This document shows, in pieces, positions 53,354 through 63,742 of a DNA stretch of 64,000 nt (within the stretch, counting starts at the first letter, position 1; each line of letters opens with the position of its first letter). The DNA is from Actinomycetota bacterium (GTDB lineage Bacteria > Actinomycetota > Actinomycetes > Mycobacteriales > Mycobacteriaceae), in NCBI GenBank assembly GCA_018268465.1, contig JAFDWN010000007.1:1-64000 (forward strand), in the 5' to 3' direction. Made by a program: the position numbers and the translations under genes. Below the pieces are notes generated by a model. It made no database searches. It was given only the letters and a program-made list of their open reading frames with translations, and was not told the DNA's origin.

Positions 53354-55300
53354 TCAACTCTCGCAGCAGTGCGACGTCGGCGCAGCCGGAACGTTCAAAG
53401 CGGGGTTGCGATCGAAGAAACCGACCGGTTTGAGCGTGAATCCGGCATAGTCCACCGGCATCACCGGCCAGTCCTCGGGACGCGGGAAGTGGGTCAGCCC
53501 GAACGTGTGCCACACCACGATATCCTCGCCGTCGATATCGCGGTCGCCGCGAATGTACTCGGGCAGCCCCGCGCCACCCGGATGCTGGTTGACCAACTGC
53601 CCGGCCGGATAGCGCTGCGCGGGATCGTATTTCGTCACCCACAGGTGCTTGGTGGCGAAGGCGGCGCGGGCCGCGATCGAGCTGGACGGGTCGGCGAGCA
53701 GCACCGGCTGCCCCTCGGGATGCAGCGCGTAGCCGACGTCCTGCCCGAGCCGGTTCTGCTTGGTGGGATTGGTGATGTGCCAGACGCGAGCCTTGAGGTT
53801 GTCGGCGGTGCGGGCAGCCTGCGACTCACGGGTCAGCTTCGTCTTCTGCGCCCGGAAAGCGTTGCCCCAGGGATTGTCCGGGCCCATCGGCACCGCGACC
53901 GCGTCGACCTCCGCCACCGCGTTGACGTCGCCGTCGACGGCCATGTCCAGCCGCGCGGAAAACAGGTGCTGATGGAACGGCGCACCGAGCCCGGGCGCGA
54001 TCTCGGTGGCGAACCCGTCGGGTCCGCGGTAGGCGGACGGGAACACGATGCCGGTGGCCTTGGCCTCCAGTTCGATGGTGCCGTCGAGGTAGAGGTACCA
54101 GTAGAAGCCGTAGTCGTAGTTGCCGATGGTCAGGAAGAAGGAGATGACCAGCCGCCTCGAGCGCCGCGTCTCGGCCATGCCGTTGAACATGTCGGTGTGC
54201 TTCCACAGCACCCCGAAGTCCTCCTCGTGCAGACAGATGGCGTTCTTCATCACCTTGGGGTGACCCTGTTCGTCGGCGACCGTGACGTCGAAGTAGGTGA
54301 TGTCGCCCAGGCAGTCGCAGCCCAACTCCAGCGAGTTCGTGTAGCGCCCGAACAGGTATTCACCCTGATCGAAGTAGTTCTGCCAGTAGCGCACCGGCGA
54401 CGGATCGGCGTAGGGCACCACCATCTCGGCGATCGAGGCACGGTAGACGACCGGGCGCACGGTGTCCCCGTCGCGCAGCGAGATCTGATGCAGGGTCAGA
54501 CCCTCCCGGACGTCGAAGGAGAACCGGAAAGTCCAATCCGCCCAGTCGATCTGATTGCCCTGGACGGTGAAACTCGGACCGTCCGGCTGGATGATCTCGA
54601 TGGGTTTGAGGTCGGTGCGGGTCGGCCGCGCATGGGGTTCGGCGTCCCACTGGCCGCGCTCGGCCGGCAGCGGGAGCTCCATCTCGTCGATGACCTTCAC
54701 GACACGCTGTTGCGGCAGGTCGACGTAGGCGACCACACCGTCGATCGGGTGCGCCCACGGCAGATCCGCCGCGTCGTACTGATAGAACGCCAGCACCCGC
54801 ACGATCCGGCGGCCTACCTCGTCGTCGTGGCCGAATACGCCGGCCGACAACGGGACCGCACGCACCTTGGCGGGATCGAGCTGACGTTTGCCGATCGCGT
54901 CCAGCCATTCGGGGCAGTCGAGCAGGTAACCCTCGATGTCCTCGAACTCCTGGTCGAGGATGGGGAGCTGGCCGTCGACGGCGGCGTCGACCGATGCGCG
55001 GCTGACGATGCGATCACCGGTCAGCGACACCACCAGGTCGGTGCCGACCCCGGTCGCCCGATCCAGCAGCAGCACCCGGGCGCGCCGTTCGATCGGGTCA
55101 CCGACGGCGAACTCCAGCACGGTCCGTTTGTGCGGCTCGTCGAGGGCGACGTAGACGAAGCGCACGCTCTCGCCGAGAAGACCGTTTTCGTCGACGATGC
55201 GGCGTGCCGCGCGGATCTCCCCGGCGGTCAACGGGTTCAGCGGGTGATCGGGCGCGGCCGAACCGGTGTGGTCGGCGGTCTCGACGGTCGCGGTGCTCAT
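53354..55300 (-). CDS. Copper-containing primary amine oxidase
   Basis: A 648-aa copper/TPQ amine oxidase, similar to the Arthrobacter enzyme. After the N-terminal D2/D3 domains the catalytic domain has the TPQ precursor tyrosine Y395 in FLTIGNYDYGFYWY, copper ligands H443 and H445 in PFHQHLFSARLDM, and a third His in HTFGLTHFPRPEDWPVMP. It oxidises primary amines to aldehyde, ammonia and hydrogen peroxide. It has no signal peptide and ends SHCCES. It is preceded by a permease gene with an ATGA overlap. Regulation is probably through the phased operator array at 56812-57154. Confidence 0.95.
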   Translation of the reverse strand: MSTATVETADHTGSAAPDHPLNPLTAGEIRAARRIVDENGLLGESVRFVYVALDEPHKRTVLEFAVGDPIERRARVLLLDRATGVGTDLVVSLTGDRIVSRASVDAAVDGQLPILDQEFEDIEGYLLDCPEWLDAIGKRQLDPAKVRAVPLSAGVFGHDDEVGRRIVRVLAFYQYDAADLPWAHPIDGVVAYVDLPQQRVVKVIDEMELPLPAERGQWDAEPHARPTRTDLKPIEIIQPDGPSFTVQGNQIDWADWTFRFSFDVREGLTLHQISLRDGDTVRPVVYRASIAEMVVPYADPSPVRYWQNYFDQGEYLFGRYTNSLELGCDCLGDITYFDVTVADEQGHPKVMKNAICLHEEDFGVLWKHTDMFNGMAETRRSRRLVISFFLTIGNYDYGFYWYLYLDGTIELEAKATGIVFPSAYRGPDGFATEIAPGLGAPFHQHLFSARLDMAVDGDVNAVAEVDAVAVPMGPDNPWGNAFRAQKTKLTRESQAARTADNLKARVWHITNPTKQNRLGQDVGYALHPEGQPVLLADPSSSIAARAAFATKHLWVTKYDPAQRYPAGQLVNQHPGGAGLPEYIRGDRDIDGEDIVVWHTFGLTHFPRPEDWPVMPVDYAGFTLKPVGFFDRNPALNVPAAPTSHCCES

Positions 55301-56748
55301 CGTGCGGTCTCCATTTCGTTGTCGGTCGGGTTGTCATGTCGGGCGGCGTGCGGTCGGCGCACCGCGACCGCGGCGCCGCCGAGGAATGCACCGGCGAGCA
55401 GAACGCCGATGATCGCGGCAAGGGTGGTGGAGCCGCCGACCAACAGCGGCAGGTTCACGGCCGTCATGACCAGCAGGACGGCCAGTCCGGCGAAGCCCAG
55501 CCCCGGAGCGATCAGTGTGTGCCACACCCTGGTGTCGAAGCGCCAGCGCCGGAAATACACGATGACCGCCGCCGACGTCAGCGTCATCAACGCGACGATG
55601 CCCACCGAGGACACCCCGGCGAACCACGCGAACACCTGCGTGACGGGGTCGAGGCCGGCCGCCGCCGACACCGCCACCAACACCAGCGCCGATACGGTCT
55701 GCACGACCGACGCGAGATACGGCGATGCGTGCCGCGCATGCGAGCGACCGCACCAGCTCGGCAGGGCCCGGGTGTTGCCGAGCGCGAAGATGTACCGCGC
55801 CAGAACATTGTGGAATGACAGCAGCGCGGCGAAAAGGCTTGTGATCAACAAGATCTGGACCAGCTGACCGGCGACCGACCCGACGTAGCGGGTGGCGGTC
55901 TCGGTGATCATGCCCTCGGGGTTCTCGGTGGCCAGCGCGACGGCGCCCGCATCACCCCAGGCCGTGACCATCGCCCAGCTGCTCAGCGCGTAGAAACCGC
56001 CGATGAGCAACAGCGCCAGGTACGTCGCACGGGGGATGGTGCGGGCCGGATCGCGCGCCTCGTCGCGGAACACGGCCGTCGCCTCGAACCCGATGTAACC
56101 GGCGATCGCGAAGATCAGGGCGATGCCGGGGGCGCCGGAGAAGAAGTTCCCCGGGTGCAGAGCGGCGGTGGACAGCCCTTCGGGCCCGCCGCGGCCGAGT
56201 ACCGCGGCGTTGATGACCATGACGATGCCGACCTCACAGATCAGCAGGACACCGAGGACTTTCCCGGACAGTTCGATGTGGCGATACCCCAGCGTCGCGA
56301 CCACGGCCATCATCGCCACCGCGTAGACGAACCAGGGCACCGCGGGCCCGCCGTAAGAGGTGACGAGGTCGTTGACGGCCGCGCCGATGTAGCCGTACAC
56401 CGCGCCCTGCACCGCCGTGTACGACAGCAGCGCCAGGAACGCCGCCCCCAGCCCCGTGTGCCGGCCCAGACCGTGCGCCACGTAGGTGTAGAACGCGCCC
56501 GCCCCGCGGATGTGTCGGGACATCGCGGTGAATCCGACCGCGAACAGCAGCAGCACCGCGGTGCACACCACATACGACGCCGGGAAGGCCGCACCATTGC
56601 CCGCGGCGATACCCAGCGGCACGGTGCCCGCGACGACCGTCAGCGGGGCGGCGGCCGCCACCACCATGAACACGATGGCGGCGGGGCCGAGACGCCCCGC
56701 CAATGCGTGCGATTTCCCGGGCGACGACAGAAGAGCATCGGTTGTCAT
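55297..56748 (-). CDS. APC-family permease (amine uptake)
   Basis: A 483-aa, 12-helix APC transporter: AIVFMVVAAAAPLTVVAGTV in helix 1, RGAGAFYTYVAHGLGRHTG, and AIAGYIGFEATAVFRDEARD in helix 6. It overlaps the amine oxidase start (ATGA) and is the first gene of the operon, so it likely imports the primary amine substrate. The ATG at 56748 follows the operator pair at 56812-56846 by 63 bp. Confidence 0.9.
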   Translation of the reverse strand: MTTDALLSSPGKSHALAGRLGPAAIVFMVVAAAAPLTVVAGTVPLGIAAGNGAAFPASYVVCTAVLLLFAVGFTAMSRHIRGAGAFYTYVAHGLGRHTGLGAAFLALLSYTAVQGAVYGYIGAAVNDLVTSYGGPAVPWFVYAVAMMAVVATLGYRHIELSGKVLGVLLICEVGIVMVINAAVLGRGGPEGLSTAALHPGNFFSGAPGIALIFAIAGYIGFEATAVFRDEARDPARTIPRATYLALLLIGGFYALSSWAMVTAWGDAGAVALATENPEGMITETATRYVGSVAGQLVQILLITSLFAALLSFHNVLARYIFALGNTRALPSWCGRSHARHASPYLASVVQTVSALVLVAVSAAAGLDPVTQVFAWFAGVSSVGIVALMTLTSAAVIVYFRRWRFDTRVWHTLIAPGLGFAGLAVLLVMTAVNLPLLVGGSTTLAAIIGVLLAGAFLGGAAVAVRRPHAARHDNPTDNEMETAR

Positions 56749-57253
56749 GGCATTCACTTTCGTGCAAATGAGCGGACAATTGGTTGCGATGCGGTAAGGC
56801 ATTGGCAAGTTCGAATGAGAATGGCCGCGACACACATTCTCATTCGACCGCGAGAGTTCACCCGTCGGTCGATGCGACATACACACGTCGACGCGTTTCC
56901 ATCGCCGTCGCCCTGCGCAGTGTCAGGCCTCCCGCAACGGAAAGCCAAGGTGTGATGTGGATCCGCCACTGGAAACTACGCCCAAATGTGGTGCACGTCA
57001 CCACTTATTTCGAATGGGTATCGCGGCCCATGCCATTCTCATTCGACGTCACACACGCATTCTCAATTCAGCGTCGCCGCTGCCGCAGCTCCGCGCGGCG
57101 CGGCGTCCGCGAGCCGCCGGTTTCGCGCGATTCCGGTTGACGGATTCTCATTCGGGATTCGGCAGAATTTACGCGGGAGCGCTGTCGCCACCGGGCCGGG
57201 TGGGCTACCTTCCCTCTGGGTTCCCGGCACGGGTAGACAGGCGGTAAGTCACG
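56749..57253. promoter_or_regulatory. Divergent control region with phased operator array
   Basis: About 500 bp without a gene between two divergent permease operons. The motif ATTCTCATTCG or its complement occurs at 56812-56822 (complement), 56836-56846, 57011-57021 (complement, two mismatches), 57035-57045, 57059-57069 (variant) and 57144-57154. Neighbouring copies begin exactly 24 bp apart in three cases. A separate palindrome GTGGTG-CACGT-CACCAC lies at 56988-57004. TACCTT (57206-57211) may be the -10 for the plus-strand permease. The local IclR is the natural candidate binder. Confidence 0.7.
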
Positions 57254-58708
57254 GTGCGCAGCATTCGGGCGATGCGGAGCAGATCGCCGGTGTCGGGTCT
57301 GCGCCGCGGCGAGCTGTCCTTCGCCCAGGTGCTCGGCCAGTCGGTGTCGGCGGTGGCCCCGTCCGCGGTGATGGTGACCCTGCCCGCGATCGTCATCCCG
57401 GCGGCCGGATCGCTGACCCTTGCCGTCTTCGTCGTCACCGCCCTGCTGATGACCGCGGTCGGCTACTGCGTGAGTCAGTTCTCCACGCGGATGGTCGCGG
57501 TCAGCGGGCTCTACAGCTACACCGTCAAGGGTCTCGGGCCGATTCCCGGCATCGGGGCGGGATGGTCGCTGCTCATCGGCTACGCCGGGGCCGCGATGGC
57601 CAGCACGCTCGGCGCCGCCAGCTACCTCGCCGCCCTGCTGGGGCGACTCGGCGTGCCCGGCGGGCGGCCCACCGTCGCGGTGCTGGCCGTCGCCGTCGGT
57701 GCGCTCGCCCTGACGCTGATGATCCGAGGAGTGCGGCTGTCGGCCCGGATCTCGCTGACGGTCGAGGTTTTCGCGATCCTCGCCGCGGGCGCCGTGTTGG
57801 TCATCGCGTTCACCCACGCGCTGGGCGACGGCTCCGGCAACCGCCCCGCACCCCCCGCGGCGCCACCCGAGCTGGGTTTCGCTCTGTTGCTTGCCATCAC
57901 GTCCTTCGTCGGATTCGAGAGCGCCTCCACCGTCGCCCGCGAGGCGCGCAGGCCGTTCGTCACCGTGACCCGCGCGATCCGGTGGTCACCGGTGGCGTTG
58001 GGGGTGTTGTACCTGTTCGCCGCCGCGATGCAGTCCACCCAGACCCTCGTCGCCGGAACGGGTTCCATCCCCATCGTGCTCAGCATGCCGTCGACGGGAG
58101 GCTCCGCATCGACCGCGCTGACGATCCTGATGGAACTCGGCATCGCCGCGTCCTGGTTCGCCTGCGTGATCGGTTCCACCACCGCACTGTCGCGGACGTT
58201 GTTCGCGATGGGCCGCGAGGGTGTGGTGTCGCGCCGGATGGGCCGCACCCACCCCGTGTTCCGCACCCCGCACATCGCGCTGCTCGTCGCGATGCCGCTC
58301 ATCGCCGCCGTCCCGATCGGCTACCTGTTCGTCGCGGGTTCCAGCCGCGAGGTGCTGATCGGCCTGCTCGCCGTGTCGGCGCACGGCTATGTCGGCGCCT
58401 ATCTCCTGGTGTCGCTGGCCACACCGGCGTTCCTGCACCGTATCGGTGAGCTCACCCGCACGCCGGTGCTCGTCGGCGTCGCCTCGGCCGCCCTGATGAT
58501 CGCGATCATCGGCTGGGCGGCGTTCACGGTCGAATCCCCGGTGTGGATCGCGACGGCGGTGTACGCGACGCTGGTGGCCACCGGTTACGCCCTGTTCGTG
58601 CTGCGCAGACGCTCGGTGCCCGACCTGACCGCCCGGGTCGGGGTGTTCGACGAGACGGTGGCCGGCGACGTGCTGACCGACTACAACCCCTGGCAGGTCC
58701 GCCCATGA
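57254..58708 (+). CDS. APC-family permease
   Basis: A 484-aa APC transporter (FAQVLGQSVSAVAPSAVMVT in helix 1, VSGLYSYTVKGLGPIPG, LLAITSFVGFESASTVAREA in helix 6). It differs from the permease at 55297 and probably takes a different amine or amino acid. The GTG at 57254 is the furthest reasonable start; a GTG or ATG a few codons later is possible. It overlaps the IclR gene by ATGA and is controlled from the same operator-rich region. Confidence 0.88.
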   Translation: MRSIRAMRSRSPVSGLRRGELSFAQVLGQSVSAVAPSAVMVTLPAIVIPAAGSLTLAVFVVTALLMTAVGYCVSQFSTRMVAVSGLYSYTVKGLGPIPGIGAGWSLLIGYAGAAMASTLGAASYLAALLGRLGVPGGRPTVAVLAVAVGALALTLMIRGVRLSARISLTVEVFAILAAGAVLVIAFTHALGDGSGNRPAPPAAPPELGFALLLAITSFVGFESASTVAREARRPFVTVTRAIRWSPVALGVLYLFAAAMQSTQTLVAGTGSIPIVLSMPSTGGSASTALTILMELGIAASWFACVIGSTTALSRTLFAMGREGVVSRRMGRTHPVFRTPHIALLVAMPLIAAVPIGYLFVAGSSREVLIGLLAVSAHGYVGAYLLVSLATPAFLHRIGELTRTPVLVGVASAALMIAIIGWAAFTVESPVWIATAVYATLVATGYALFVLRRRSVPDLTARVGVFDETVAGDVLTDYNPWQVRP

Positions 58709-59457
58709 GCCCGGGCGAGGGCTCCCTGTCGGGCCGTCAGCCCAAGGCCGTGCAGAGCGCGCTGCGGGTGCTCGAGGAGGTGGCGAGGGCCGGCGTCGGC
58801 GTAACCGCCAAGGAGATCGCCCAGAACCTCGACCTGCCGTCGGCCACCACCTATCGGCTGTTGAATCTGCTCGTGGCCGACGGCTACATCGTGCGGTTGC
58901 CGGATCTCACCGGGTTCTCGCTGGGGCACCGGATGAGCACGCTGATCGACGCGACGGTGGCGCCGAGGGTGTGCACCGCGGCCCGCGACGTGCTCGCGGA
59001 GATGCGGTTGTCGGTGCGGTTCGGGGTCCACCTGTTCTACTTCACCAACACGGCCGTACGCATCGCCGACGCGGACGCCGAATTCCCGCCGCCCGCCGAC
59101 GAATCGGTGCTCAACCGCCATCTGCACGCATGCGCCGTCGGCAAACTGCTGCTGGCCGAGAAGGGTGACGCGGGCGAGCTGGTGCCCGCCTCGCTGGCCC
59201 CACTGACCGACCGCACGGTGGGCTCGCGCAGCGAACTGTTCGAACAGCTGCACACGGTCCGCGGGCAGGGCTACGCCGCCCAGACCGGTGAACTGCGCAG
59301 CGAGACCGCGTGTGTGGCCGTGCCCGTGCGCGCGCCGTCGGGGGAACTCGTGGCCGCCCTGGCGATGTCAGGACGCAGCGATCAGGACACCTTGCTGCAC
59401 AGGCAGATTCAGCCGCTGGCCGAATGCGCCGCGCGGCTCAGCCCGCTGCTGGCCTGA
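58705..59457 (+). CDS. IclR-family transcriptional regulator
   Basis: A 250-aa IclR regulator. The winged helix (KAVQSALRVLEEVARAGVGV, then AKEIAQNLDLPSATTYRLLN) is followed by the effector domain (HACAVGKLLLAEKGDAGELV, TGELRSETACVAVPVRAPSG, the usual Cys in the ligand pocket). It is translationally coupled to the permease gene (ATGA). Its position and the operator array at 56812-57154 point to control of both amine operons, activated or derepressed by an amine-derived ligand. That assignment is inferred. Confidence 0.9.
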   Translation: MSPGEGSLSGRQPKAVQSALRVLEEVARAGVGVTAKEIAQNLDLPSATTYRLLNLLVADGYIVRLPDLTGFSLGHRMSTLIDATVAPRVCTAARDVLAEMRLSVRFGVHLFYFTNTAVRIADADAEFPPPADESVLNRHLHACAVGKLLLAEKGDAGELVPASLAPLTDRTVGSRSELFEQLHTVRGQGYAAQTGELRSETACVAVPVRAPSGELVAALAMSGRSDQDTLLHRQIQPLAECAARLSPLLA

Positions 59458-59474: not shown

Positions 59475-61097
59475 TCACAATGCGTCGACGCTCAGCAGCC
59501 GCGCGCTCTCGGCGCGCATGTCGACCTTGCGCACCTTGCCGGTGACGGTCATCGGGAACTCGTCGACCACCCGCACATACCGCGGGATCTTGTAGTGGGC
59601 GAGCTTGCCGGATGCGAACACGCGCACCGCGTCGGCGTCCAGCGGGTCACGGCCGGGCTTCATCCGTATCCAGGCACAGATCTCCTCGCCGAACCTGGCA
59701 TCCGGCACACCGACCACCTGGGCGTCGTCGACGTCGGGGTGGGTGTAGAGGAACTCCTCCACCTCGCGCGGGTAGATGTTCTCCCCGCCGCGGATCACCA
59801 TGTCCTTGATCCGCCCGACGACGCTGCAGTAGCCGTCCTCACGCATGACCGCCAGATCACCGGTGTGCATCCACCCGTCGGCGTCCACGGCATCGCGGGT
59901 GCGCTCCTCGTCACGCCAGTAGCCGAGCATCACCGAGTAACCGCGCGTACAGAATTCGCCCGTGGCGCCCCGCGGGACCACATCGCCGGTGTCCGGGTCG
60001 ACGATCTTGATCTCGACGTTGGGATGGGCCCGGCCGATGGTGGAAGTGCGCCGCTCCAGATCGTCGTCGATCAGCGTCTGGCAGGACACCGGTGACGTCT
60101 CGGTCATCCCGTAGGCGATCGCGACCTCCGACATGTTCATCTCGTTGACGCACCGTTTCATGACCTCGATCGGGCACACCGAACCCGCCATGATGCCGGT
60201 GCGCAGACTCGACAGATCGGTCGTGGCGAAGGCGGGATGGCCGAGCATCGCGATGAACATCGTCGGCACCCCGTAAACCCCGGTACAGCGCTCCTTTTCG
60301 ATCGCCTCGAGGGTCAGCTTCGGATCGAATCCGGGTGCGGGGATGACCATGGTCGCGCCGTGGGTGGTGCAGCCCAGGTTGCCCATCACCATGCCGAAAC
60401 AGTGGTAGAACGGCACCGGGATGCACAGCCGGTCACCGGGCCCCAGCTTGATCAGCTCGGTGACGAAGAACCCGTTGTTGAGGATGTTGCGGTGCGACAG
60501 CGTCGCCCCCTTGGGGAAACCCGTTGTGCCCGAGGTGTACTGGATGTTGATCGGATCGCGGTTGTCCAGCGCCGCCAACCGTTGCGCCAGTTGTTCGGCG
60601 GGCACCCCGTCGGCGTCGGCATACAGCTGCGCCCAATCCCCGCCGCCAAGGAACACAACCTGCTCCAGGCCGACGATGTCGGGGCGGACCTGCGCGACCA
60701 TGCTCACGTAGTCCGAACTCTTGAACGACCGCGCGGAGATCAGCATCCGGACGCCGGACTGCTCGAGCACATAGGCCAGCTCGTGGGTGCGGTAGGCGGG
60801 GTTGATATTGACCAGGATCGCCCCGATCTTGGCCGTCGCGTACTGCACCACGGTCCATTCGGCGCAATTCGGCGCCCACATGCCGACCCGGTCGCCGCGC
60901 GCGATGCCACGGGCCATCAAACCCCGCGCCACGACGTCGATCTCGTCGTTGAGCTCCCCGTACGTCCAGCGCCTGCCGGTCGCGACATCCACGAGCGCCT
61001 CGGTGTCGGGCGCACCGCGCGCGATGCGCTCGAAATTCGCGCCGACGGTCTCCTCCAGGATCGCGATGTCGGTGCGTCCCGCGTCGTACGACTCCAT
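59475..61097 (-). CDS. Acyl-CoA synthetase, FadD35-like
   Basis: A 540-aa ANL-superfamily acyl-CoA/AMP ligase. The phosphate-binding loop is YTSGTTGFPKGATLSH (about residue 193), the core motif IAYGMTETSPVSCQ follows, then GWMHTGDLAVMREDGY, the hinge RIKDMVIRGGENIYP, and the catalytic Lys in FPMTVTGKVRKVDM. It activates a fatty acid or carboxylic acid to acyl-CoA. It resembles mycobacterial FadD35. It starts three bases after the stop of the other synthetase, in the same operon. Confidence 0.9.
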   Translation of the reverse strand: MESYDAGRTDIAILEETVGANFERIARGAPDTEALVDVATGRRWTYGELNDEIDVVARGLMARGIARGDRVGMWAPNCAEWTVVQYATAKIGAILVNINPAYRTHELAYVLEQSGVRMLISARSFKSSDYVSMVAQVRPDIVGLEQVVFLGGGDWAQLYADADGVPAEQLAQRLAALDNRDPINIQYTSGTTGFPKGATLSHRNILNNGFFVTELIKLGPGDRLCIPVPFYHCFGMVMGNLGCTTHGATMVIPAPGFDPKLTLEAIEKERCTGVYGVPTMFIAMLGHPAFATTDLSSLRTGIMAGSVCPIEVMKRCVNEMNMSEVAIAYGMTETSPVSCQTLIDDDLERRTSTIGRAHPNVEIKIVDPDTGDVVPRGATGEFCTRGYSVMLGYWRDEERTRDAVDADGWMHTGDLAVMREDGYCSVVGRIKDMVIRGGENIYPREVEEFLYTHPDVDDAQVVGVPDARFGEEICAWIRMKPGRDPLDADAVRVFASGKLAHYKIPRYVRVVDEFPMTVTGKVRKVDMRAESARLLSVDAL

Positions 61098-61100
61098 GGG

Positions 61101-62801
61101 TCAGTCCACCAGCTCCTCGTAGCGGTACTCCGACGCGATGCGCTCCCCCGCCTCGTGGGCCGCATCCTCCCGGCGGCGGAGTTCGACCCGGCGGATCTTG
61201 CCCGAGATGGTTTTGGGCAGTTCGAAGAACTCGATGCGGCGCACCCTCAGATACGGCGGCAGGTGCTCGCGCGCGTACTGCAGGATCTGCCGCGCGGTGT
61301 CCGCGTCGGCCGCCCACCCCTCGGCCAGCGCCACGTAGGCCTTCGGCACCGTCAGACGGGTGTCGTCGGGCTGCGGGACCACCGCCGCCTCCACCACCGC
61401 GGGATGCTCGATGAGCACGCTCTCCAGTTCGAACGGCGAGACCTTGTAGTCGGAGGATTTGAAGACGTCGTCGGTGCGCCCGATGTAGGTGATGTACCCG
61501 TCCTCGTCGCGGCGCGCCACATCCCCGGTGTGGTAGTAGCCGCCCCACATGACCATTTCGTTGCGCCGCGGGTCGTCGAGGTAGCCGCTCATCAGGTTCA
61601 CCGGTTCGCGGCTCAGCTCCAGGCAGATCTCCCCTTCGTCGGCGGCCTCGCCGGTGAGCGGGTCGATCAGCACGACCGGCACACCGGGCATCGGCCGCCC
61701 CATCGAACCCGGCTTCACCGCCTGGCCCGGCGTATTGCCGACCTGCAGCGTCGTCTCCGTCTGCCCGAACCCGTCGCGGATGGTCAACCCCCACGCCCGC
61801 TCCACCCGGGCGATGACGTCGGGGTTGAGCGGCTCACCCGCGCCGAGGATTTCGCGCAGCCCGTCGGGCCGGGCGCCGAGATCGGACTGGATCAGCATCC
61901 GCCACACCGTCGGCGGCGCACAGAACGTGTTGACCCTGGCACGGCGCAGTTGGGCGAGCAGTGTGGCCGCGTCGAAACGCGCGTAGTTGTAGACGAAGAT
62001 CGTGGCCTCGGCGATCCACGGGGCGAAAAAGCAGCTCCACGCGTGTTTGGCCCAGCCCGGTGAGCTGATCGCCAGATGCACGTCGCCGGGCTGCACACCG
62101 ATCCACGCCATCGTCGACAGGTGCCCGACCGGATAACTGACCTGCGAATGCTGTACCAACTTGGGTTTGCTCGTAGTACCCGAGGTGAAGTAGATCAGCA
62201 GCGGATCACCGACGTCGGTGCACGCGGTGAACGGCCCGGCGGAGGTGACCGTGGCGGCCTCGCCGTAGTGGTGCCAGCCCGGCACCGGCTCGCCGACGGC
62301 AATACGCGTGTACCGGCCGGCCACCCCGTCGAACTTCGGAGTGTCGGCGGCGTTGGCGATGACGAACGACGCCCCGCCGCGCGCGATCCGGTCGGCCAGA
62401 TCGTCGGCCCCGAGCGCACCGGTGGTCGGCATGATCACCGCACCCAGCTTGGCGATCGCCAGCATCGACTCCCACAGCTCGACCTGATTGCCGAGCATGA
62501 GGATCACCCGGTCGCCCTTGCCCACGCCCAGCCCCGCGAGCCACGTCGCGACCCGATCGGAGCGCTCGGCCATCTCGGCGAAGGTGACCTTCTGTTCGCC
62601 GCCGTCCTCTTCGACGATCCACAGCGCGAGCCGCTGCGCCGACGACGGGGTGCGGGCGGTGACGTCGAACCAGTCGGTCGCCCAGTTGAAGGTGCCCGTC
62701 AGCCGCGGCCACGCGAACGTGTCCACCGCCTTCTCGTAGTCGCTGATGACGGCACAGAGCTGATCGCGAGCGCCGCGATAGATATCGGTGTTGGTCGCCA
62801 T
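61101..62801 (-). CDS. Acyl-CoA synthetase, medium-chain type
   Basis: A 566-aa ANL-superfamily ligase of the acetyl/medium-chain acyl-CoA synthetase type (FTSGTTSKPKLVQHSQVSYP, RDGFGQTETTLQVGNTPGQA, YYHTGDVARRDEDGYITY, and LPKTISGKIRRVELRR with the catalytic Lys). The N-terminal FNWATDWFD segment is typical of ACSM-like enzymes. It is the first gene of a two-synthetase operon, divergent from the LuxR-type gene, which may regulate it. The open frame continues upstream, but the family starts at ATG 62801. Confidence 0.9.
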   Translation of the reverse strand: MATNTDIYRGARDQLCAVISDYEKAVDTFAWPRLTGTFNWATDWFDVTARTPSSAQRLALWIVEEDGGEQKVTFAEMAERSDRVATWLAGLGVGKGDRVILMLGNQVELWESMLAIAKLGAVIMPTTGALGADDLADRIARGGASFVIANAADTPKFDGVAGRYTRIAVGEPVPGWHHYGEAATVTSAGPFTACTDVGDPLLIYFTSGTTSKPKLVQHSQVSYPVGHLSTMAWIGVQPGDVHLAISSPGWAKHAWSCFFAPWIAEATIFVYNYARFDAATLLAQLRRARVNTFCAPPTVWRMLIQSDLGARPDGLREILGAGEPLNPDVIARVERAWGLTIRDGFGQTETTLQVGNTPGQAVKPGSMGRPMPGVPVVLIDPLTGEAADEGEICLELSREPVNLMSGYLDDPRRNEMVMWGGYYHTGDVARRDEDGYITYIGRTDDVFKSSDYKVSPFELESVLIEHPAVVEAAVVPQPDDTRLTVPKAYVALAEGWAADADTARQILQYAREHLPPYLRVRRIEFFELPKTISGKIRRVELRRREDAAHEAGERIASEYRYEELVD

Positions 62802-62851
62802 GCCCGATAGGATCCAGGTCACAATCAGTCCGACGCTACCCCCGAAAGTGG

Positions 62852-63742
62852 GTGCCCACGGTGCCCCTCGACGAGCAACCCGCGACGCCGGCCCGGTCGC
62901 CGTTGCTGCGGCCGCGCGACGCCGACGCGGTGCGCGCAGAGCTGCGGCGCGTCGCGGCGGAGACGAGCCTGCCGCTGACGTTCGGCGGCGAGGTGCACGA
63001 CGACACACTGCTCCTCACGGAGTTCTTCGGCGCGCGGACCAGCGCGATGCGGGGGCTTGCGGTGCTGCCCAGCGCCGGACTCGGCGGTGCGACGATGGTG
63101 GCGCGGCGGCCGCTGTCCGTCGCCGACTATCGCAGATCCTCGACGATCACCCACGACTACGACGGTCCGGTGCTCGTCGAGGGCATCACCTCGATCCTCG
63201 CGGTCCCCGTCGTCGTGGACGGGCGGGCCCGCGCGGTGCTGTACGGGGCCTACCGCGCGGCCGCGCCGATCGGCGATCGGACCGCCGACGCCATGGTGGC
63301 CTCCGCCCGCCGGCTGGGTATGGAGCTGCGGGTACGGGACGAGGTGGACCGCCGCATGCGGTTGCGGGAGGCGCAGCTGGCCAACTTCGGCGACCCCGTT
63401 GCCGGTGCCGAACAGGTCCGCGAGGTGCATGCCGAATTGCGGCGGCTGGCCGCCGACACGACCGTCGGGCCGGCGATCCGCGCCCGTCTGCGCGGCCTCG
63501 CGGCCCGGCTCGGCAGCGCGGCGTCCGGCGAGGCGCCGACGCTGAGCACACCGCTGACCGAGCGGGAACTCGACGTGCTGTCACAGGTTGCGCTGGGTTG
63601 CACCAATGCCGAAGCGGCGAAGCGTCTTTCGCTGCGGCCGGAGACGGTCAAGAGCTATCTGCGCAGCGCGGCGGCCAAACTGGGCACCCGCACCCGCCAC
63701 GAATCGGTATCCAGGGCGCGGCGGTCACGGCTTCTTCCGTAG
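62852..63742 (+). CDS. GAF-like/LuxR-type HTH regulator
   Basis: A 296-aa regulator. Residues about 25-160 look like a GAF-type sensor (GLAVLPSAGLGGATMVARRP, VEGITSILAVPVVVDGRARA), a linker helix follows, and the C-terminal LuxR helix-turn-helix (LTERELDVLSQVALGCTNAE, AKRLSLRPETVKSYLRSAAA) ends it. The same GTG-headed group of regulators often lies next to acyl-CoA synthetase or catabolic operons. It starts GTG at 62852 or 62861. Control of the divergent synthetases is inferred. Confidence 0.85.
   Translation: MPTVPLDEQPATPARSPLLRPRDADAVRAELRRVAAETSLPLTFGGEVHDDTLLLTEFFGARTSAMRGLAVLPSAGLGGATMVARRPLSVADYRRSSTITHDYDGPVLVEGITSILAVPVVVDGRARAVLYGAYRAAAPIGDRTADAMVASARRLGMELRVRDEVDRRMRLREAQLANFGDPVAGAEQVREVHAELRRLAADTTVGPAIRARLRGLAARLGSAASGEAPTLSTPLTERELDVLSQVALGCTNAEAAKRLSLRPETVKSYLRSAAAKLGTRTRHESVSRARRSRLLP

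Follow-up and report, generated by a model that had tools for sequence, protein, structure and literature searches.

TtgV and BlcR are IclR-family tetramers that act on tandem sites, and the tyramine oxidase genes of E. coli are controlled by FeaR, a regulator of the AraC type. According to the accessible text of PMC8222616, IclR operators fall into two motif classes, and three-box and tandem sites are also described: the three-box sites comprise those of PcaU, PobR and HmgR and of 32 predicted groups, and the tandem sites lie 18–22 nt apart in 94 groups, with three- and four-turn spacings occurring too. The GylR operator is an 18-bp palindrome, as given in the accessible part of PMC9732521. 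In the literature searched, no paper linked ATTCTCATT to IclR, none joined IclR, copper amine oxidase and mycobacteria, none treated the BlcR operator or tetramer in an IclR context, and nothing stood closer to the present locus than PMC8222616, as far as its accessible text goes. The original prediction for this DNA had contrasted its boxes with known IclR operators as shorter single palindromes; this contrast was wrong, because three-box and tandem sites are described in the accessible text of PMC8222616.

The window, namely the whole stretch of 64,000 nucleotides analysed here, carries two divergent gene pairs. On the minus strand, the gene of APC permease 1 (55297–56748, with the start codon inferred from relatives) is followed by that of a copper amine oxidase (53354–55300), whose closest solved relatives are named phenylethylamine oxidase. 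On the plus strand, the gene of APC permease 2 (57254–58708) is followed by that of an IclR-family regulator of 250 amino acids (58705–59457), whose start is taken to be an ATG within permease 2. In each pair, the two genes overlap by 4 bp. HTH_IclR and IclR_C both exceeded their cut-offs in the regulator, which places it in the IclR family, and its nearest ortholog among species-named records is that of Mycolicibacterium komossense (79% identity). The DNA probably comes from a mycobacterium.

The motif scan of the window found exact copies of ATTCTCATTCG at 56836, 57035 and 57144 on the plus strand and at 56812 on the minus strand, together with variants at 57011 (minus strand, 2 mismatches) and 57059 (plus strand, ATTCTCAATTC, 3 substitutions or one inserted base). 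The six copies originally predicted (three exact on the plus strand, one exact complement and two variants) were thereby confirmed, as were the 13-base spacer in both inverted pairs, 56812/56836 and 57011/57035, and the direct 24-bp step from 57035 to 57059. Only 5 exact copies exist in the 6.9-Mb genome, 4 of them within these 343 bp; the fifth (L068:8281–8291) falls within an ORF whose surroundings, judged by eye, resemble a transposon. At up to 2 mismatches, the window-wide count was 10 and did not exceed that of shuffled sequences (mean 6.75; 10 reached in 13 of 100 shuffles), so the signal of the array resides in its exact copies and their clustering. The inverted-pair pattern CGAATGNGNAT-(11–15 bases)-ATNCNCATTCG was present in 4 of 251 family genomes, and its reversed-pattern control in 0.

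The predicted 11-bp motif is thus real, and the comparison of 115 different boxes with their flanks extended it to a conserved box of 12 bp with the consensus ATTCTCATTYGA. Expressed as 12-mers, box A1 (ATTCTCATTCGA, 56811–56822, minus strand) faces the permease 1/amine oxidase genes, and box A2 (also ATTCTCATTCGA, 56836–56847, plus strand) is inverted relative to it, the cores reading TGAGAA-N15-TTCTCA; both were found by the scan and by alignment in relatives. Box B1 (ATACCCATTCGA, 57010–57021, minus strand) is degenerate and inverted relative to B2 (ATTCTCATTCGA, 57035–57046, plus strand), after which B3 (ATTCTCAATTCA, 57059–57070, plus strand) follows as a direct copy; B1 is based on the scan and alignment, and B2 and B3 additionally on the spacing analysis described below. 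Box B4 (ATTCTCATTCGG, 57144–57155, plus strand) is the proximal box of the permease 2-IclR promoter. A stretch 23 bp beyond it (57167–57178, plus strand), with the letters rTTyAc, may be a degenerate fifth box.

Although the boxes had been predicted to form one array, 32 of the 37 distinct loci have an aldehyde dehydrogenase gene separating the two permease genes, and wherever its strand was listed, it is that of permease 1. Because this gene is absent from the window, the array is in fact a pair of adjacent control regions: region A precedes permease 1, and region B lies, in most relatives, between the aldehyde dehydrogenase gene and permease 2. No remnant of the gene was detected in the gap of the window (56848–57009), and no dehydrogenase of comparable identity occurs elsewhere in the genome (8 matches at E<=1e-100, the best at 48%); L071 has kept a C-terminal remnant of 42 residues. 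On a tree of the 37 loci obtained by a quick method, presence and absence changed at least 5 times. For the aldehyde dehydrogenase of L070, the top NCBIfam matches were phenylacetaldehyde dehydrogenase StyD models, at scores under their cut-offs.

Boxes were present at the orthologous loci in 20 of 20 species-named records (18 mycobacteria and 2 Rhodococcus) and in L064–L066 from other genera, and the matching region also held boxes in 14 of 14 further family genomes with an IclR of at least 52% identity. The latter include L197, which has a different amine oxidase (47%) and whose boxes form an inverted pair at a distance of 24 bp, with no triple. Alignments of the orthologous loci across mycobacteria, Rhodococcus and other genera of the family showed that the boxes are kept and the spacers are unrelated. 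In L067, which belongs to another family (IclR 49%, amine oxidase 64%), no box reached the threshold (best score 8.4), and only ATTCTCAT was found, 76 bp before permease 2. These comparisons indicate, at the level of sequence, that the operator array of the amine/IclR locus is real and conserved. The M. houstonense record (L087) contains runs of N, and parts of its permease 2 and IclR are out of place, which probably reflects assembly trouble.

For the analysis of spacing, near-identical loci and L087 were removed, leaving 37 of 43 loci, and triples were accepted when B3 lay 65–100 bp before B4 and B2 lay 15–45 bp before B3, each at a score of at least 15. In 36 of the 37 loci, B2, B3 and B4 occur in direct order before the permease 2-IclR genes, the exception being L189 with a different box order. 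Among these 36, the distance from B2 to B3 is either 23–24 bp (27 loci) or 34–36 bp (9 loci), and that from B3 to B4 either 73–76 bp (8 loci) or 85–88 bp (28 loci), with nothing between the classes in both cases. On the tree, long and short forms switched at least 2 times for B2-B3 and at least 4 times for B3-B4, which provides a natural series of spacing variants for a direct test of the helical-phase constraint on IclR-type oligomers. B1 was scored in 26 of 37 loci, 25–26 bp from B2 between 12-mer starts, and fell under the score in the other 11. Region A is not universal: 24 of 36 loci yielded its core pair, the gap being 14 bases in 3 of them, 15 in 6 and 16 in 15.

Conservation of spacing in related loci, on which the original prediction had staked itself, was therefore found, with discrete spacings recurring before orthologous genes. 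These are what a phase constraint gives and suggest cooperative, phased binding, although such steps may also have come from the gain or loss of a 12-bp unit. The steps measure 11–12 bp, nearer 12 than 10.5, and the vector length peaks near a helical period of 11 for B2-B3 and near 12 for B2-B4, so that a pure 10.5-bp phase is not proven. The predicted placement of the sites on similar helix faces about every two turns likewise holds only approximately: the inverted cores TGAGAA/TTCTCA of the window are 21 bp apart from centre to centre, but the direct 24-bp step amounts to 2.3 turns. As for the predicted distinct, cooperative control element, the operator array and its conserved spacing stand and the discrete spacings suggest cooperativity, but the contrast with known IclR operators fails, as given above.

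With up to 3 mismatches allowed, the published full palindromes of IclR groups 1 and 2, GKTYCRYW3-4RYGRAMC and TGRAACAN1-2TGTTYCA, matched in only 0–3 of 37 loci, counted over five spelled-out variants that exclude the four-W subgroup, and they were rejected as operators at these promoters. When the published half-site WTTYCRY was compared with the TTCTCAT of the box, 112 of 120 boxes agreed with it at 6 of 7 positions, a score that a random GC-rich 7-mer reaches in 0.7% of cases; a single asymmetric box of 12 bp is long for one half-site. A dedicated regulator for amine oxidase and aldehyde dehydrogenase genes recalls FeaR, but the regulator gene inside the shared block is here of the IclR type. 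TtgV and BlcR are among the PDB matches.

The sites of PcaU, PobR and HmgR, an inverted pair with an external direct half-site repeat beside catabolic and iclR-type genes, resemble the order B1-B2-B3, which is present in the 26 of 37 loci with a scored B1; in those systems, as far as the accessible text of PMC8222616 describes them, the half-sites stand few bases apart in a short palindrome, whereas 13 bases (15 between cores) separate them here and a further box follows 73–88 bp on. Tandem sites bound by tetramers also place pairs about two turns apart, 18–22 nt between centres in the accessible text of PMC8222616, and the 21 bp between the inverted cores of the window would be consistent with a tetramer; by contrast, each known tandem site there is a palindrome, whereas the present boxes are single and asymmetric, of mixed orientation, with direct repeats at 23–24 or 34–36 bp. 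PbaR of Sphingobium sets a precedent for widely separated IclR half-sites, since the ends of its motif in Table 1 of PMC8222616 read as a widely spaced inverted pair, AATAG-16 bases-CTATT, but this is one pair with other letters, and no multi-box array is given for it in the accessible text. Judged from the motifs in that text, neither published class appears to have boxes 13 bases apart, in mixed orientation and over more than 100 bp.

Distribution among genomes was used to ask which regulator the boxes follow. The inverted-pair pattern occurred in 22 of 297 genus genomes and its reversed control in 0 of 297. An IclR ortholog (E<=1e-40) was present in 26 of the 297, including all 22 with the pattern, and the other 4 carry B boxes. 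Exactly these 26 genomes also hold the amine oxidase ortholog (at least 76% identity). The locus therefore moves as a block, and presence alone cannot separate the regulator from the regulated gene; IclR is the single regulator gene within this block. Of the 297 genomes, 72 carry the LuxR gene (E<=1e-60), and 49 of these have neither IclR nor the pattern. The boxes therefore track the IclR gene and not the neighbouring LuxR gene.

At the permease 2 promoter, the predicted -10 element of the window is TACCTT (TAnnnT; 57206–57211, plus strand), based on a [GT]CTAnnnT pattern in relatives. Counted from the start of B4, the strict pattern begins at 59–62 bp in 25 of 37 loci and at 52–53 bp in 4, with no strict match in 8; the distance is shorter by 7–8 bp, which is not a turn, in one clade of 4 loci. 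When these 4 loci were set aside and the other 33 aligned, no conserved -35 element was found, and T was conserved at +24 and +25 of B4 (32/33 and 31/33 loci). The degenerate box-like rTTyAc recurs 23–24 bp after B4, and several loci also have a similar TTACC behind A1.

Taking these data together, we consider it probable, at roughly two chances in three, that the conserved 12-bp boxes are bound by the cluster's own IclR as a cooperative oligomer, which we predict to be an activator of the amine-breakdown cluster. The IclR protein would occupy the boxes, and B2/B3 and B4 may be joined by a DNA loop or bend, the spacings between them stepping by about one helical turn. The proximal box would lie about 65–70 bp upstream of the predicted start, where a conserved -10-like element without a conserved -35 resembles activator-dependent promoters. 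The inducer would be a phenylethylamine-type amine or aldehyde, and carbon control may be contributed by a CRP-like site next to B1. The boxes of most relatives would act on three units, namely permease 1-amine oxidase, aldehyde dehydrogenase and permease 2-IclR. This assignment provides a predicted regulator, operator and regulon for the copper-amine-oxidase pathways of mycobacteria and rhodococci.

The sign of the regulation and the identity of the binding protein both admit other readings. If the boxes are IclR operators through which IclR represses, a repression loop would be released on amine binding; distant boxes at discrete spacings also fit such a loop, and the accessible text of PMC8222616 includes repressors in the family. 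We regard this as unlikely, since the proximal boxes stand clear of the predicted -10 and permease 2 has no conserved -35, both of which favour activation. A reading to which we give still less weight assigns a different site to IclR, the conserved palindrome TGTGG-TGCACG-TCACC (56987–57002, CRP-like or TsdR-like), and leaves the boxes to a regulator encoded elsewhere. The palindrome matches TGTGA-N6-TCACA at 8 or more of 10 positions in 36 of 37 loci and at 7 in the other, always 48–49 bp before B2 (48 bp from start to start in the window), against 51 of 3700 random 60-bp stretches. The TsdR motif GTGTGRYTSSMRTCAYAC, given in Table 1 within the accessible text of PMC8222616, can be read in the same TGTGR-N6-TCAYA frame. 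However, only 3 of 36 loci (the window, L071 and L195), all of them without a dehydrogenase gene, have the palindrome in the 260 bp upstream of permease 1, and sites resembling the boxes reappear next to some of the distant permease-IclR pairs. Moreover, TGTGA-N6-TCACA is also the CRP consensus, and CRP-type helix-turn-helix domains are encoded in the genome (PF13545, 19 matches, 4 over the cut-off; PF00325 had no match there). TGTGN7TCAC occurs 159 times in this genome, versus 104 times for the reversed pattern.

The GAF-LuxR regulator encoded at 62852–63742 could be thought to bind the boxes, being near the locus in 18 of 18 species-named mycobacterial records (two by partial matches), but its distribution makes this highly improbable: besides the 49 LuxR-bearing genus genomes without IclR and boxes, no match to it was found in 3 of the 26 genomes with IclR, nor within about 5–10 kb beyond iclR in the box-bearing L064–L066, L084 and L085. 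Chance or a mobile repeat has a negligible probability. The unremarkable window count at 2 mismatches would suit chance, which is nevertheless rejected by the conservation of the boxes across genera and by the empty reversed-pattern control in the genus, and a repeat element is rejected since the spacers differ.

More distant relatives give evidence both for and against the preferred reading, in which IclR binds the boxes. The set with an IclR below 57% identity comprised 21 loci (16 of 50 more distant matches, 3 from the genus, L067 and L197), from which groups P1 and P2, in both of which IclR lies beside a permease gene, were set up post hoc from scores and alignments. A box score of at least 11.5 was reached in 8 of the 21 loci, namely 6 of 8 in P1, 0 of 6 in P2 and 2 of 7 others (L197 and L212). 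In P1, most of the boxes read ATTCCCACTYGG, and the 6 of 8 compare with means of 0.11 of 8 in shuffles and 0.68 of 8 in random stretches; a search of the P1 stretches for copper amine oxidase relatives gave none. In P2, TGAGAA-N15-TTCYC occurs in 4 of 6 loci and at none of 15 other gaps tried. A neighbour scan of two distant loci found EutB in L201 (P2), and MauE with a multicopper oxidase gene in L211 (P1); EutB (ethanolamine ammonia-lyase) and MauE are parts of other amine routes. The helix-turn-helix region looks closely similar across the distant IclR groups.

These distant permease-IclR pairs possibly form a family of amine-pathway IclR regulators. In a wider and tentative proposal, which we hold to be less likely than not, the members of an actinobacterial IclR clade would read a shared TTCYCA box, each of them encoded next to an APC permease and to a route for primary amines (a phenylethylamine-type amine oxidase, ethanolamine ammonia-lyase or a MauE locus). 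The operator format would be new, with single asymmetric boxes of mixed orientation distributed across more than 100 bp, one oligomer joining them across DNA turns and spacings that jump by whole turns.

Two further observations concern the surroundings of the boxes. In relatives, the conserved palindrome appears, by coordinates, near the start of the aldehyde dehydrogenase gene. Downstream of iclR, neighbours of comparable identity were not seen in L064–L066, L084 and L085 over the roughly 5–10 kb scanned, and in all 18 species-named mycobacterial records the locus is adjoined, as it is in the window at 59475–63742, by two acyl-CoA-synthetase-like genes and the GAF-LuxR gene.
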